A stretch of 64,000 nucleotides of DNA from the NCBI GenBank assembly GCA_036271555.1, contig DATBAK010000019.1, positions 62,001 through 126,000 of the forward strand, read 5' to 3'. The position numbers were made by a program, and so were the translations under genes. Source of the stretch: Acidimicrobiia bacterium. Lineage in GTDB: Bacteria; Actinomycetota; Acidimicrobiia; IMCC26256; PALSA-610. A model generated the notes under the pieces. It was not told where the DNA came from. It worked only from the letters and a program-made list of their open reading frames with translations, and did no database searches. Below are positions 832 to 22,587 of the stretch, in pieces (within the stretch, counting starts at the first letter, position 1; each line of letters starts with the position of its first letter).

Positions 832-1595
832 GCGACGCCGCCCTGCTCGGCGACCAGTTCGTCGAGGAGCAGAAGCGCTTCTGGCGCAACCCGACGAGCG
901 CGGTCTTCACCGCGCTGTTCCCGGTGATGTTCCTCGTGATCTTCGCGGCGTTGAACTCGAACAACCGGATCAAGGAGCTGCACGACATCCGCTTCGCGCA
1001 GTACTACGTGCCGTCGATCGTCGCGTTCACGATCTTCTCGGCGTGCTTCGTGAACCTCGCGATCGCGACGACGTTCCGGCGCGAGATGGGTCTGCTGAAG
1101 CGGGTTCGTTCGACGCCGCTGCCGCCCGCGATCTTCATCGGCGGTGTCATCCTCAGCGCGTTGTTCGTCGGCGCGTTCCTGTCGGTGCTCGTCACGCTCG
1201 TCGGCGTCGTGTTCTACGGCGTGCACTTCTACGCGGCGCGACTGCTCGCCCTCGTCGTGACGTTCGCGATCTCGTCGGCGTCGTGCTGCGCGCTCGGTCT
1301 CGGCATCACGACGTTCCTGCCGAACGCCGACGCCGCGCCCGCGGTCGTCAACTTCATCTACTTCCCGATCGTGTTCATCTCGGGAACCTTCTATCCGATC
1401 GACTCCGGCTCGGCGCTCGCGAAGATCGCGAACGTGTTCCCGGTGCGCCACGTGATCCTCGCGGTCTTCGCGGGCTTCGATCCGGTGCGTAGCGGCGCCG
1501 GATTCGAGTGGAACCACCTCGTCGTGATCGCGGTGTGGGGACTCGCGGGCCTCTTCGTCGCGGTGCGACGGTTCCGTTGGGAGCCGTCGAAGTAG
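828..1595 (+). CDS. ABC-2 type transporter permease
   Basis: Integral membrane half of the exporter powered by the preceding ATPase; about 255 residues, the usual size for ABC-2 permeases. Around six hydrophobic segments are visible, starting with TAVFTALFPVMFLVIFAAL near residue 25. The amphipathic stretch FRREMGLLKRVRSTPLPP near residue 90 is a conserved ABC-2 feature. The ATG overlaps the ATPase stop codon (ATGA), which fixes the start and the operon. A lipid, drug or polyketide-like substrate is possible, but nothing here decides it. Confidence 0.9.
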   Translation: MSDAALLGDQFVEEQKRFWRNPTSAVFTALFPVMFLVIFAALNSNNRIKELHDIRFAQYYVPSIVAFTIFSACFVNLAIATTFRREMGLLKRVRSTPLPPAIFIGGVILSALFVGAFLSVLVTLVGVVFYGVHFYAARLLALVVTFAISSASCCALGLGITTFLPNADAAPAVVNFIYFPIVFISGTFYPIDSGSALAKIANVFPVRHVILAVFAGFDPVRSGAGFEWNHLVVIAVWGLAGLFVAVRRFRWEPSK

Positions 1596-1603
1596 TCGCG
1601 CGG

Positions 1604-2815
1604 CTAGGAAGCGCGCGTCGCCGACGCGGCCTTCGAGGCGAGCTCGAGGATGCGCGCGGTGCAGCCCGCCATCTCCACCGGCGGGAGCAGCTCGTCGACG
1701 ATGCGGCGCGCGATGCGGCGGAACTCGGTCGCGGCGGGCCCGTCGGGCACCGCGAGCACCGCGGGTCGGCCCTCGTCGCCGCCGGTCGACACCGCGGGCT
1801 CGATCGGGATCTCGCCGATGAGCGGCGCGCCCGTGAGGGCGGCGAGACGCTTGCCTCCACCGCTGCCGAAGATCGCGAAGTGCTGGCCGTCCGGCGTCAC
1901 GAGCTCCGACATGTTCTCGACGACACCGAGCACCTTGAGATAGCTGCGGCGCGCCATGTCGGCGACACGCGCCGCAACCTTCTGCGCGTTCTTCGCCGGT
2001 GTGGTGACGACGAGCATCTCGGTCTGCGGCAGGAGGCGCGACAGCGCCATCTGGATGTCGCCGGTGCCGGGCGGCATGTCGAGCAGCAGGTAGTCGAGCG
2101 CGCCCCAGCGCACGTCGGTGAGGAACTGCTCGAGGGCCTTCGACAGGATCAGGCCCCGCCACATCAGCGCGGTGTCCTCGTCGTCGACGAGCAGACCCAT
2201 CGACACGACCGCGATGCTGCCCTTGGGTCCCGACGGGTCGTCGAGGTTCGCGACCTCGATGACGGACGGTTCGATCTTGCTCTGGTCGGCCGCGTCCTTC
2301 TTCGCGCCGAGCCGGCCCGACACGCCGAGCATGCGCGGCACGCTGAATCCCCAGATGTCGGCGTCGAGCACGCCGACGGAGAGCCCCTGCGCGGCGAGCG
2401 CGGCCGCGAGGTTCACCGTCACCGACGACTTGCCGACGCCGCCCTTGCCACTCGCGATCGCGAGGACGCGCGTCGTCGCGCCGACCTCGGTCTCGGGCGC
2501 GCGATTCGTCGCCTCGAGCCGCGCGCGCTGCATGACCGCCGAGCGCTCGGCTTGCGTCATCTCCGCGTACTCGACGTCGACCGCCCGCACGCCGGGCAGG
2601 CCGTGGACCTTCGAGATCACGTCGGCCTTGATCTGACCCCGGAGCGGACAGCCCGCGGTGGTCAGCGCCACCTTCACCCGCACGTCGCCGTCGGGCGAGA
2701 CCTCGACGTCGCGCAGCATCCCGAGGTCGACGATGCTGGCGCCCAGCTCCGGGTCACGGACCCCGGCCAGGATGCTCCGCACCGCCGTGGCGTCGGGGGC
2801 TTGCGGACTGGCCAT
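1604..2815 (-). CDS. mrp: Mrp/ApbC-type P-loop ATPase, iron-sulfur cluster carrier
   Basis: 403-residue Mrp/NBP35-family protein that in known members binds and transfers Fe-S clusters in the cytoplasm. Residues 10-90 form a MIP18/DUF59 domain (VRDPELGASIVDLGML). The deviant Walker A SGKGGVGKSS is at 122-131, followed by the DMPPGTGD motif. The CxxC found near the C-terminus of many Mrp proteins is absent: the ENMSELVTPDGQ stretch has no cysteine, as I recall is also the case in mycobacterial Mrp. It is divergent from a SufR-like regulator and an ErpA/IscA protein, which supports an Fe-S role. The ATG at 2815 is chosen because the DUF59 domain begins right after it. Confidence 0.92.
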   Translation of the reverse strand: MASPQAPDATAVRSILAGVRDPELGASIVDLGMLRDVEVSPDGDVRVKVALTTAGCPLRGQIKADVISKVHGLPGVRAVDVEYAEMTQAERSAVMQRARLEATNRAPETEVGATTRVLAIASGKGGVGKSSVTVNLAAALAAQGLSVGVLDADIWGFSVPRMLGVSGRLGAKKDAADQSKIEPSVIEVANLDDPSGPKGSIAVVSMGLLVDDEDTALMWRGLILSKALEQFLTDVRWGALDYLLLDMPPGTGDIQMALSRLLPQTEMLVVTTPAKNAQKVAARVADMARRSYLKVLGVVENMSELVTPDGQHFAIFGSGGGKRLAALTGAPLIGEIPIEPAVSTGGDEGRPAVLAVPDGPAATEFRRIARRIVDELLPPVEMAGCTARILELASKAASATRAS

Positions 2816-2902
2816 GCGTTCCACCGATGGGTCGGGGTCGGGGTGCCGCACCCTCCATCGGCCGATGCGATCGCCGGGTGCGGCGAATAAAACACGAGCG
2901 GG

Positions 2903-2931
2903 TTGAAAATATGCCCGGTGGCAGGTACCGT
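2903..2931 (+). promoter_or_regulatory. Promoter of the SufR-like regulator, facing the mrp promoter
   Basis: TTGAAA (2903-2908), a 17-nt spacer and TACCGT (2926-2931) are followed 9 nt later by the ATG at 2941. The transcript should therefore be leaderless or nearly so. Its -35 box overlaps the -10 box of the mrp promoter and vice versa. Confidence 0.6.
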
Positions 2932-2934
2932 CAA
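2906..2934 (-). promoter_or_regulatory. Promoter of mrp
   Basis: On the minus strand TTGACG (2934-2929), a 17-nt spacer and TATTTT (2911-2906) form a near-consensus housekeeping promoter about 90 nt before the mrp start. It is physically interlocked with the sufR-like promoter on the other strand. Confidence 0.7.
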
Positions 2935-2940
2935 GCCGGA

Positions 2941-3597
2941 ATGGACCCGCTCGCAGTGATCCAGGCGCTCGGCGACGAGACGCGTGCGTTGCTGTACCGC
3001 GAGCTCGCAGGTTCGCCCCGCCCGCTCGGTGCGCCCCAGCTCGCGGAGCGCCTCGGCCTGCACACGAACACCGTGCGCATGCACCTCGAGCGGATGCGCG
3101 AGGCCGGGCTCGTCGACGTCGAGTCCGTGCACCGGGGCACGGTCGGCCGGCCCCAGCACGTGTACACGCTCGCGAGCGACGCGCCGGGGCTCGACTTCGA
3201 TCCACCCGCGCACGCGGTGCTCGCGGGTCTGCTCGCGGCGATGGCCGAGCGGTTGGGCGGCGACGCGATCGACGCCGAGGCGACGGGCCGCGAATTCGGC
3301 CTCCAGTCGGCGCGCCGCACCCCGTCGGGCAAGTGCGTCGACGTGCTCGTACAGCAGTTGACGGCACTGGGCTTCGACCCGGCGGTCGAGCAGGACGGCG
3401 ACGGCACCCGCATCGCGTTCCTGCAGTGCCCGTTCCGCGACCTCGCCGAGGCCTATCCCGAGCTGGTGTGCAACCTGCACCGCGGGATCTGCGCCGGCAC
3501 GCTCGAATCGGCCGGTGGCGGAAACATGGAACACTTCTCCACGTTGTACGACCACGACCCCTGCCACGTGCGGGTCGTGGCCGGATCCGCCAAGTAA
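2941..3597 (+). CDS. SufR-like winged-helix Fe-S-sensing transcriptional regulator
   Basis: 218-residue DNA-binding protein. Residues 8-70 are an ArsR/DeoR-like winged helix (LGDETRALLYREL; recognition helix around HTNTVRMHLERM). The C-terminal half has C163, C177, H180 and C184 in FLQCPF and LVCNLHRGIC, matching the cysteine pattern that holds a cluster in SufR-type repressors; C208 is an extra cysteine. In cyanobacteria and mycobacteria SufR represses Fe-S assembly genes. Here it precedes an A-type carrier protein by 17 nt and diverges from mrp, so it probably controls both. Start 2941 is preferred over the in-frame ATG at 2911 because the -10 hexamer lies at 2926-2931, inside that longer version. 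Confidence 0.78.
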   Translation: MDPLAVIQALGDETRALLYRELAGSPRPLGAPQLAERLGLHTNTVRMHLERMREAGLVDVESVHRGTVGRPQHVYTLASDAPGLDFDPPAHAVLAGLLAAMAERLGGDAIDAEATGREFGLQSARRTPSGKCVDVLVQQLTALGFDPAVEQDGDGTRIAFLQCPFRDLAEAYPELVCNLHRGICAGTLESAGGGNMEHFSTLYDHDPCHVRVVAGSAK

Positions 3598-3614
3598 GCC
3601 CCCAGGAGGGATCG

Positions 3615-3935
3615 ATGATCGCGCTCACCGACGCAGCCTCGACGAAGGTCAAGGAGCTCCTCGACGCCGAGGGGAACCCGCAGATGTTCCTCCGGGTCGC
3701 AGTGCGCCCGGGCGGTTGCTCGGGGATGAGCTACGAGATGTTCTTCGACAGCGACCTCGCCGCCGACGACATCCGCACCGAGTTCGGTCCCGTGAACGTC
3801 GTCGTCGACCCCGCGAGCGAGCAGTACCTCACCGGCGCGACGCTCGACTTCAAGGACGGCCTCCAGGGCGCCGGGTTCTCGATCAACAACCCGAACGTCA
3901 CCCGCACCTGCGGCTGCGGCCAATCCTTCTCGTAG
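3615..3935 (+). CDS. erpA: A-type Fe-S cluster carrier (ErpA/IscA/HesB family)
   Basis: 106-residue cytoplasmic A-type carrier, expected to receive a [2Fe-2S] or [4Fe-4S] cluster and hand it to apoproteins. The three family cysteines are present: C35 in GGCSGMSY and C99/C101 in the terminal TCGCGQSF. Length is typical. AGGAGGG at 3604-3610 places the ATG at 3615. It is 17 nt downstream of the SufR-like regulator and probably cotranscribed with it. Assignment to ErpA rather than IscA or SufA is only by convention. Confidence 0.9.
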   Translation: MIALTDAASTKVKELLDAEGNPQMFLRVAVRPGGCSGMSYEMFFDSDLAADDIRTEFGPVNVVVDPASEQYLTGATLDFKDGLQGAGFSINNPNVTRTCGCGQSFS

Positions 3936-3936
3936 C

Positions 3937-4003
3937 GCTCGCTCCGCTCGCCGCTACCGACGCCTCAGCCTCCAGGCGAGGTCGCGCTGCTCGCTCCGCT
4001 CGC
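3937..4003. repeat. Pair of short GC-rich intergenic repeats
   Basis: The 15-mer GCTCGCTCCGCTCGC occurs twice, at 3937-3951 and 3989-4003, between two convergent genes. The reverse-complement core GCGAGCGGAGCGAG recurs at 16449-16462, and looser versions occur near 32448 and 43020, all in intergenic DNA. Their role is unknown; they may act in 3' ends or be selfish REP-like units. Confidence 0.5.
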
Positions 4004-4034
4004 GAGCTGTCGCGCGTACGAGGTCTGCCGCCGG

Positions 4035-4904
4035 TCAGCTGACGAGCTGCTTCAGGAGCGCGTCCATCTCGGTCTGATCGAACGCACCGTCGAGGCGGCC
4101 GGTCACGACGCCGGTCTTGTCGACACCGAACAGCCATGGCTCGCCGGTGAGCGGACCCCACGCGTCGACGGTCGGGATCAGATCGGTCGTCTGGTCGTTC
4201 TTGTAGATCTCGACGTGCACGAAGTCGATCTGGTCCTGGTACTCGGGTCGGAGTTTCAGCAACGTGTCGAGCACCGGTCCGCAGTAACGGGTCTGACAGC
4301 GCGCCGGCGTCGCGAACATCACCGCGACCGGCCGGCCCTTCCCGATGAGGTCGGCGAGCGACGTCGTGTGCAGCGGGCACTGCGGCACGCGCGTGCAGAT
4401 CGGATGCACGCCGAGCGTGTTCGTGACCGTGGGTGACGCGGCGCGCGGCGCGGGGTCGCCCGCGATCGGCGACACGTGCTGCTTCGGGACCTGGAACACG
4501 AACCGACTCTTCGTGCCCTGGTAGTCGAGCATGCCGCTCCAGATGCCGGCCTGGTCGAGCGTCGCGTCGATCGAATAGACGCCGCGGAAGTCGGGCAGTC
4601 CCTTGCCGCGCGCGTCGGCGGTCACGAAGTGAGTCGGTTTCGAGCCCGGCGGCGCGATCGCGACGCGCACGGGCACTCCTGACGCGAAGCCTTCCTTCGC
4701 CGTGAGCGCGAACGCGAAGCGTTGCGGTTTCGGGCTCGCGTAGAGGTCGATCGACACGATGCCCGGCGCGACCTGCGTGAAGTGGTCGTCGGAGGCATTG
4801 GGAGCGCCATTGCTCGCGCTCTTCGTGCTGCCGCACGCGGCGAGCAACGCGGCACCGCCGCCGACCGCGAGGAAACGCCGTCGAGAGAAGGGATCGGGAG
4901 ACAC
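4035..4904 (-). CDS. Tat-exported lipoprotein with thioredoxin-like domain
   Basis: 289 residues. The N-terminus carries a twin-arginine signal (SRRRFLAVGG) ending in a lipobox (LLAAC), so it should be exported folded and lipid-anchored. The first half is an unrecognised beta-rich region. The second half (from about residue 165) looks thioredoxin-like: a GKGRPVAVMFATPARCQTRYCGP segment carrying CX4C, a FVHVEIYKND strand, and WLFGVDKTGVVTGRLDGAFD near the end. CX4C is not the classic CxxC, so redox activity is uncertain; Sco-like metal binding is another option. The start is GTG at 4904. It is divergent from the next gene with only 29 nt between starts. Confidence 0.75.
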   Translation of the reverse strand: MSPDPFSRRRFLAVGGGAALLAACGSTKSASNGAPNASDDHFTQVAPGIVSIDLYASPKPQRFAFALTAKEGFASGVPVRVAIAPPGSKPTHFVTADARGKGLPDFRGVYSIDATLDQAGIWSGMLDYQGTKSRFVFQVPKQHVSPIAGDPAPRAASPTVTNTLGVHPICTRVPQCPLHTTSLADLIGKGRPVAVMFATPARCQTRYCGPVLDTLLKLRPEYQDQIDFVHVEIYKNDQTTDLIPTVDAWGPLTGEPWLFGVDKTGVVTGRLDGAFDQTEMDALLKQLVS

Positions 4905-22367: not shown

Positions 22368-22587
22368 CGAATCCCCCTTCGAGACCGGTTCGCCGTGACT
22401 CTTCGCGTCGGAGGCGGTCCGGCACCAACTTGAGGGGGAATCGGCGAAGCTGCCGCTCAGCGTGTGTCTGAGCGTCTCCAACCGCGTGGGGTGGGCTGGT
22501 CCGGTCGATGAATCCGCGGCGCGATTCGCGGCGGATGACCGAATCGTCGGCTGCGTCGTGTGATGCAACGTCGAAGTTGGAGCTCGG

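Follow-up and report, generated by a model that had tools for sequence, protein, structure and literature searches.

A conserved pair of predicted interlocked divergent promoters between mrp and a sufR-like regulator gene in Acidimicrobiia

In the window (the whole 64,000-nt stretch of Acidimicrobiia DNA that was analysed), the 32 bp at 2903–2934 appear to hold a real and conserved pair of interlocked divergent promoters, one predicted to read into mrp and the other into a sufR-like regulator gene that diverges from mrp and is followed downstream by an erpA-type gene. Divergent promoters that overlap, one arm of which carries an autoregulating gene, are known from other systems; a geometry conserved under turnover of its letters, together with genes that look leaderless, is what is unusual here. 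The elements and genes are the following, with order-level loci meaning those found in genomes of the same order.

2903–2934, both strands: interlocked promoter core, palindromic TTGANNNTA-N14-TANNNTCAA, 32 bp
2903–2908, plus strand: predicted −35 TTGAAA of the sufR-like/erpA operon; TTG in 37/37 order-level loci
2926–2931, plus strand: predicted −10 TACCGT of the sufR-like/erpA operon; TANNNT in 37/37 order-level loci, with a spacer of 17 bp in 31 and of 18 bp in 6
2934–2929, minus strand: predicted −35 TTGACG of mrp; TTGA correctly placed in 31/37 order-level loci
2911–2906, minus strand: predicted −10 TATTTT of mrp; TANNNT in 34/37 order-level loci, in the same place as the class-level mrp boxes TAAAAT/TAGAAT/TAAACT
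2938–2941, plus strand: predicted start of the regulator transcript, from the −10 position and the box spacing of the own genome; leader of 0–3 nt
2899, minus strand: predicted start of the mrp transcript, from the −10 position
2941–3597, plus strand: SufR-like winged-helix regulator, 218 aa, with Cys163, Cys177 and Cys208
3615–3935, plus strand: ErpA/IscA-type carrier, by family profile match
2815–1604, minus strand: Fe-S carrier ATPase of the Mrp/ApbC type, with FeS_assembly_P as its N-terminal domain

Reading the window on both strands, we found TTGAAA-17-TACCGT (plus) and TTGACG-17-TATTTT (minus) within one 32-bp stretch, exactly where a preliminary description of this DNA had placed them; both spacers measure 17 nt, and the core is palindromic because the two are equal. 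Each −35 overlaps the opposite −10 by 3 bp, at 2906–2908 and at 2929–2931, again as described, and core elements on opposite strands thus have bases in common, in the sense of overlapping divergent promoters. The two −10 boxes are 14 bp apart and the predicted starts about 39 bp apart. With these starts at about 2938 on the plus and about 2899 on the minus strand the transcripts would diverge, and the label "face-to-face" earlier given to the pair is wrong. The mrp start codon (2815) is far from TATTTT. Besides, the predicted mrp leader contains a perfect 9-bp inverted repeat, GCCGCACCC/GGGTGCGGC, at 2845–2853 and 2876–2884, with 22 nt between its arms.

The regulator matches the HTH_20 and ArsR-type models, while comparison with solved structures gave no more than distant helix-turn-helix matches of the ArsR type (E 0.0014 for the best). 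With the cyanobacterial SufR model TIGR02702 it scores 32.7 bits, far short of the curated cut-off, 178.8. In an alignment of 69 orthologues, from which L010 (frame-broken regulator gene) and other short reading frames were left out, the three C-terminal cysteines sought in a SufR are conserved: Cys163 and Cys177 in 69/69 and Cys208 in 68/69. The name "SufR-like regulator" therefore stands in a loose sense only, with the cysteines in its favour and the family score against it, and the protein is SufR-like with a plausible cluster site, short of a demonstrated SufR. A further cysteine, Cys184, is nearly confined to the order (29/34 order-level vs 1/35 class-level regulators). The residue that follows NTVR, in the region of the recognition helix, is P in 35/35 class-level regulators, while at the order level it is L or M in 30/34 and P in 4/34. 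The link to Fe-S carriers that had been proposed is borne out by the neighbouring genes, which are of the Mrp/ApbC and ErpA types. Further along, 4035–4904 on the minus strand encodes a protein whose N-terminus is Tat/lipoprotein-like and which carries two Cys motifs of the CX type; it has no match in Pfam or NCBIfam.

A generic sigma-70 scan of 1500–4500 gave the minus pair as its sole match (9/12, with 0.1 expected) and missed the plus pair because TACCGT matches TATAAT at 3/6 positions only. TACCGT does fit TANNNT, a box seen 5–9 nt before starts in this genome, whose GC content is 70%. In a 431-kb sample of the genome, with genes called by a composition rule instead of annotation and counts that are approximate for that reason, TANNNT stands 5–9 nt before 63/1061 candidate starts as compared to 2/3534 control internal start-like codons, TA...T being enriched about 84-fold before starts; the gaps were 6 nt in 22 cases, 7 nt in 23, 8 nt in 12 and 9 nt in 6. 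Because TANNNT is so concentrated just before starts, leaderless transcription looks common in this genome. The palindrome of the core, allowing up to two mismatches, occurs once in the window where 0.03 matches are expected, and its exact form is found at a single site in the whole 4.68-Mb genome. Its wider form, A...TA-N13–16-TA...T, has 5 occurrences in the 431-kb sample, so interlocked −10 boxes are rare.

The same letters were searched for in 58 order genomes. Of the 30 sites with the exact palindrome, spread over 27 genomes, 27 lie at an mrp/sufR-like locus; the 3 sites elsewhere are in G014:C13 (one) and in the AT-richer G038 (two), and as a control the pattern read backwards has 3 sites in the 58 genomes (one in G020, two in G037). 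CTTGAAAATATGCCC has 22 sites in 21/58 genomes, all at the mrp/sufR-like locus or at its second copy in G049. That genome carries two copies of the core beside mrp, L112 (G049:C186) and L047 (G049:C511), which reflect a duplication or a mixed assembly. A wider regulon with the same core was also considered, and none was seen at exact letters in the 58 genomes, sites being nearly confined to mrp/sufR-like loci.

The regulator was found in 37/58 order genomes at E ≤ 1e-30, and 37 order-level loci, spanning 24 genera and 13 families, were read. The plus pair TTGNNN-17/18-TANNNT is present in all of them. Mirrored −10s are found in 34/37 loci (shuffle mean 0.3) and all four hexamers in 31/37 (shuffle mean 0.0). 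The minus −35 is lost in six loci (L038, L041, L044, L048, L049 and L056), and three of these (L038, L049 and L056) have lost the minus −10 as well while keeping the plus hexamers. On the tree of Mrp and the regulator, these amount to six separate losses of the −35 and three of the −10, and the three −10 losses all coincide with a −35 loss, which gives a sign test p of 0.25 on 3 pairs, too few for significance. In each of the three loci without both mrp-side hexamers another TANNNT stands nearer mrp on its strand (in L038 this is TAGATT, with 6 nt between it and the ATG of mrp); an extra mrp-strand TANNNT is present in 10/34 intact loci too. The mrp-side losses look more like the turnover of an mrp promoter than like a refutation. 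Of the conservation of hexamer pairs in relatives on which the preliminary description had staked its case, the part concerning the plus pair holds throughout, and the exceptions, 6/37, are all on the mrp side; the outcome that it had named as refuting, loss of one hexamer pair in relatives, thus does occur in part.

By column, conservation of the intergenic region in the 37 loci falls into three blocks, most other columns being below 0.3 bits:

2886–2893, block A: AATAAAAC (minus strand GTTTTATT), in relatives AATAAAA(C/A)C, 10–13 bp upstream of the plus −35
2903–2916, block B: TTGAAAATATGCCC
2924–2934, block C: GGTAC(C/G)GTCAA
2912–2916, inside both spacers: conserved TGCCC, possibly half a regulator site

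The conservation of block A and of TGCCC is not accounted for by the hexamers of either promoter.

The gap between TACCGT and the ATG of the regulator measures 9 nt, within the 5–10 nt at which TANNNT precedes a leaderless start. The locus L049, without a regular core, had been added via a looser search, and the start gap is hence counted on 36 of the 37 loci; an in-frame start lies 6–10 nt past the −10 in 28 of them. In agreement with this, the enrichment of TANNNT in the own genome, which peaks at gaps of 6–7 nt, extends to 9 nt. The gap of 9 nt lies at the long end of the range, and from this spacing the regulator is probably either leaderless or provided with a leader of no more than 3 nt, which upholds the suggestion that it should be leaderless.

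In order to follow the locus beyond the order, two sets of class-level loci were assembled, the class being Acidimicrobiia according to record titles and the best-matching named records being Acidimicrobiia and other actinobacterial metagenome assemblies. For the first set, 36 genomes outside the order had a match and 35 were fetched (G070 left out), of which L070 and L085 were dropped for want of an mrp alignment, leaving 33 loci. For the second, a contig search with an alignment as query gave 80 loci, where a single-protein query had found none; 32 were dropped as duplicates and 3 for having no divergent mrp, leaving 45. Among the named records of this search are Ilumatobacter nonamiensis YM16-303 (L205), in which no divergent mrp turned up, and Acidimicrobiia bacterium EGI L10123 (L218). 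Mirrored TANNNT boxes 13–16 bp apart occur in 18/33 loci of the first set (shuffle mean 0.2), and both start codons lie 4–11 nt from their boxes in 16/33 (here with a gap of 11–18 allowed). In the second set 36/45 loci are mirrored and 34/45 double-leaderless. Under the fixed gap of 13–16 bp, mirrored boxes are absent from 15/33 and 9/45 loci, and the complete four-hexamer form is present in 0 of the 78 class-level loci scored. The typical class-level form is ATTTTACCGG-N6-CCGTGTAATCT, in which 15 bp separate the mrp box TAAAAT from the regulator box TAATCT and each start codon is 6–8 nt from its box; more generally, the mrp boxes TAAAAT/TAGAAT/TAAACT are mirrored by the regulator boxes TAAACT/TAATCT/TATATT. 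The offset of the minus −10 from the plus −10 in the window (14 bp) is that of the class-level mrp boxes, and this is the best argument for reading TATTTT as the mrp −10.

Between the class-level −10s a CGG-N5–7-CCG dyad was found in 25/35 loci, with 160 bp upstream searched. It is an operator candidate, its geometry being like the reported N6 of SufR, and in the form searched it occurs in 0/34 order-level loci. In L094, a distant class member, AATAAACAC and CTTGCAAATATTCC are found at order-like spacing and without a TCAA arm in the region 60–400 bp upstream of the regulator; judging from this locus, the minus −35 may have arisen later than blocks A and B. Altogether, the class-level loci raise the possibility, which we put forward tentatively and at somewhat less than even chances, that geometry is the selected unit. 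Acidimicrobiia would then keep mrp and sufR-like/erpA, both leaderless, on mirrored −10s 13–16 bp apart, at which the two polymerases exclude each other, and a switch by polymerase competition between two Fe-S carrier branches would outlast the replacement of operator letters and −35s, and even of the contacts made by the regulator. If true, two-way promoters with starts about 40 bp from each other would form a class of their own, next to the one already described with 7–25 bp.

For the window itself, hexamers, spacing, conservation, leaderless geometry and gene content are there to be read. The reading that we consider probable is a divergent interlocked pair of housekeeping-type promoters with mutually exclusive initiation, both of which the SufR-like protein possibly shuts; the activity of both promoters, their start sites, mutual exclusion and repression according to Fe-S status are what we infer. 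A polymerase moving rightward would use TTGAAA-17-TACCGT, start at about 2938–2941 and make a leaderless sufR-like mRNA that continues into erpA, while one moving leftward would use TTGACG-17-TATTTT, start at about 2899 and make the mrp transcript. Each footprint would cover the opposite −10 and −35, which would render initiation mutually exclusive; the earlier notion that polymerase should occupy one promoter at a time is thus supported by the 3-bp overlaps, as a steric argument. If the SufR-like protein represses its own promoter, like SufR proteins, it would shut both arms. This scheme is plausible and in part supported. That one bound repressor would block both promoters had also been asserted; no operator was identified in the window, a search for the SufR operator CAAC-N6-GTTG giving a match at chance level near the core. 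The best such match near the core, at 2892–2905, has 2 mismatches, and about 190 of this quality are expected by chance in the window; a cyanobacterial SufR operator at the core was ruled out on this ground. The window as a whole has 256 matches with up to 2 mismatches as against the 190 expected (0/100 shuffles as high), an excess that is probably codon-driven, and one exact CAAC-N6-GTTG, at 22566. The inner palindrome TGCC-CGGT-GGCA (2912–2923) was likewise tried as an operator and set aside, as only its TGCCC is conserved in relatives and its right half is not.

Could the mrp side of the core be something other than a promoter? Were 2903–2934 to hold the regulator promoter only, mrp could start from block A (GTTTTATT, 2893–2886) as its −10, with the extra conservation of the core due to an operator for the SufR-like protein. 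Block A is indeed conserved at 10–13 bp from the core and kept in L038, L049 and L056 despite their lost minus hexamers, and the mrp start is 4–8 nt beyond it, a leaderless-type spacing, in roughly half of the 37 loci. However, TTTTAT, TTTATT and TTTAAT occur 0 times at 5–9 nt before the 1061 candidate starts (431 kb, a small sample for such rare hexamers), TT...T is not enriched there (10/1061 vs 23/3534) as against the roughly 84-fold of TA...T, and 17 bp above block A there is no −35 resembling TTGACA. Such a start would also leave unexplained why the minus hexamers disappear together and why the position matches that of the class-level mrp −10s, and we consider it unlikely. Block A could also be read as an UP-like A-tract element of the regulator promoter or as an mrp leader element; it lies at about −52 to −45 of the regulator promoter, which we take to be a position of the UP-element type.

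The promoter pair has also to be weighed against a core that is primarily a repressor operator, with arms CTTGA...TCAAG 24 bp apart, whose symmetry would produce the likeness to a minus −35 and −10 while the mrp promoter is weak or elsewhere. The core is a dyad, TGCCC is conserved beyond what promoters need, and the class-level CGG-N5–7-CCG dyad between the −10s (25/35) resembles the N6 spacing of cyanobacterial SufR. Yet the 24 bp between the arms are more than the N6 reported for SufR sites (PMC8593673), the arms coincide with the −35s and the inner TA with the −10s at 17/18 bp, and class-level relatives without arms still keep the mirrored −10s, all of which makes an operator in the first place improbable. 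A chance meeting of AT-rich hexamers is barely credible: we found no point in its support, and it is contradicted by the 0.03 matches expected in the window, the single site in the genome, the shuffle means of 0.3 and 0.0 and the conservation across 24 genera.

The interlocked pair resembles Tn10 tetR/tetA, reportedly described by Bertrand et al. in 1983 as overlapping divergent promoters, in that a regulator and its target diverge from overlapping promoters. The protein families are different; in the pair studied here the hexamers interlock symmetrically and the regulator gene looks leaderless. TetR is described as one autorepressor for both divergent arms (PMC11686294). The bidirectional promoters of E. 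coli and Salmonella (Warman/Grainger), of which acrA/acrR is a regulator–target case, are presented as pseudo-symmetrical DNA that fires in both directions and at which polymerases compete, with starts 7–25 bp apart, commonly 18, and overlapping −10s (PMC12825309, PMC10268837). With its predicted starts separated by about 39 bp and each −10 over the opposite −35, the core falls outside the definition as given in these sources. Cyanobacterial sufR likewise is a SufR-type gene divergent from Fe-S genes, sufBCDS, and is reported to control both arms through two sites of unlike affinity, CAAC-N6-GTTG (PMC8593673, PMC6034842), a motif not found at the core, where the partner is the carrier gene mrp. 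Closer in lineage, Rv1460 (SufR) of M. tuberculosis is described as a repressor with a leaderless transcript, the first gene of the suf operon, with three essential cysteines at 203, 216 and 244 (PMC6034842). The regulator studied here is similarly actinobacterial, apparently leaderless, at the head of an Fe-S operon and endowed with three cysteines, but their spacing is x13/x30 as compared to x12/x27 in Rv1460, which heads a suf operon and for which the parts of that source drawn upon report no divergent mrp. Literature searches found no published account of the mrp/sufR-like promoter.

If both promoters are active, the locus would be a natural and deeply conserved case of two genes unable to initiate together, with a regulator on one arm. 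Mirrored boxes or hexamers are present at 82 loci of the order and the class, in which letters vary and spacing is kept; these are ready-made variants, suited to measuring how the ratio of two Fe-S carriers depends on promoter interlocking, on repression and on leaderless translation. The promoter model TANNNT 6–8 nt before the start is itself testable for a class that is mostly metagenome-assembled among the relatives found.

The own genome contains a second sufR-like gene (G000:C44:1561–2175, L002), which diverges from another mrp copy and has a cysteine-desulfurase-like gene behind it. At this locus there is a dyad, CACTACG...CGTAGGTA, and the regulator is preceded by a −10 of the leaderless type. 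The −10 of the second pair is GGTANAATACC in 9/11 loci covered, with 2 more at one mismatch; it reads as TANNNT on both strands, and the second pair would fit the type with a shared −10 (18 bp) instead.
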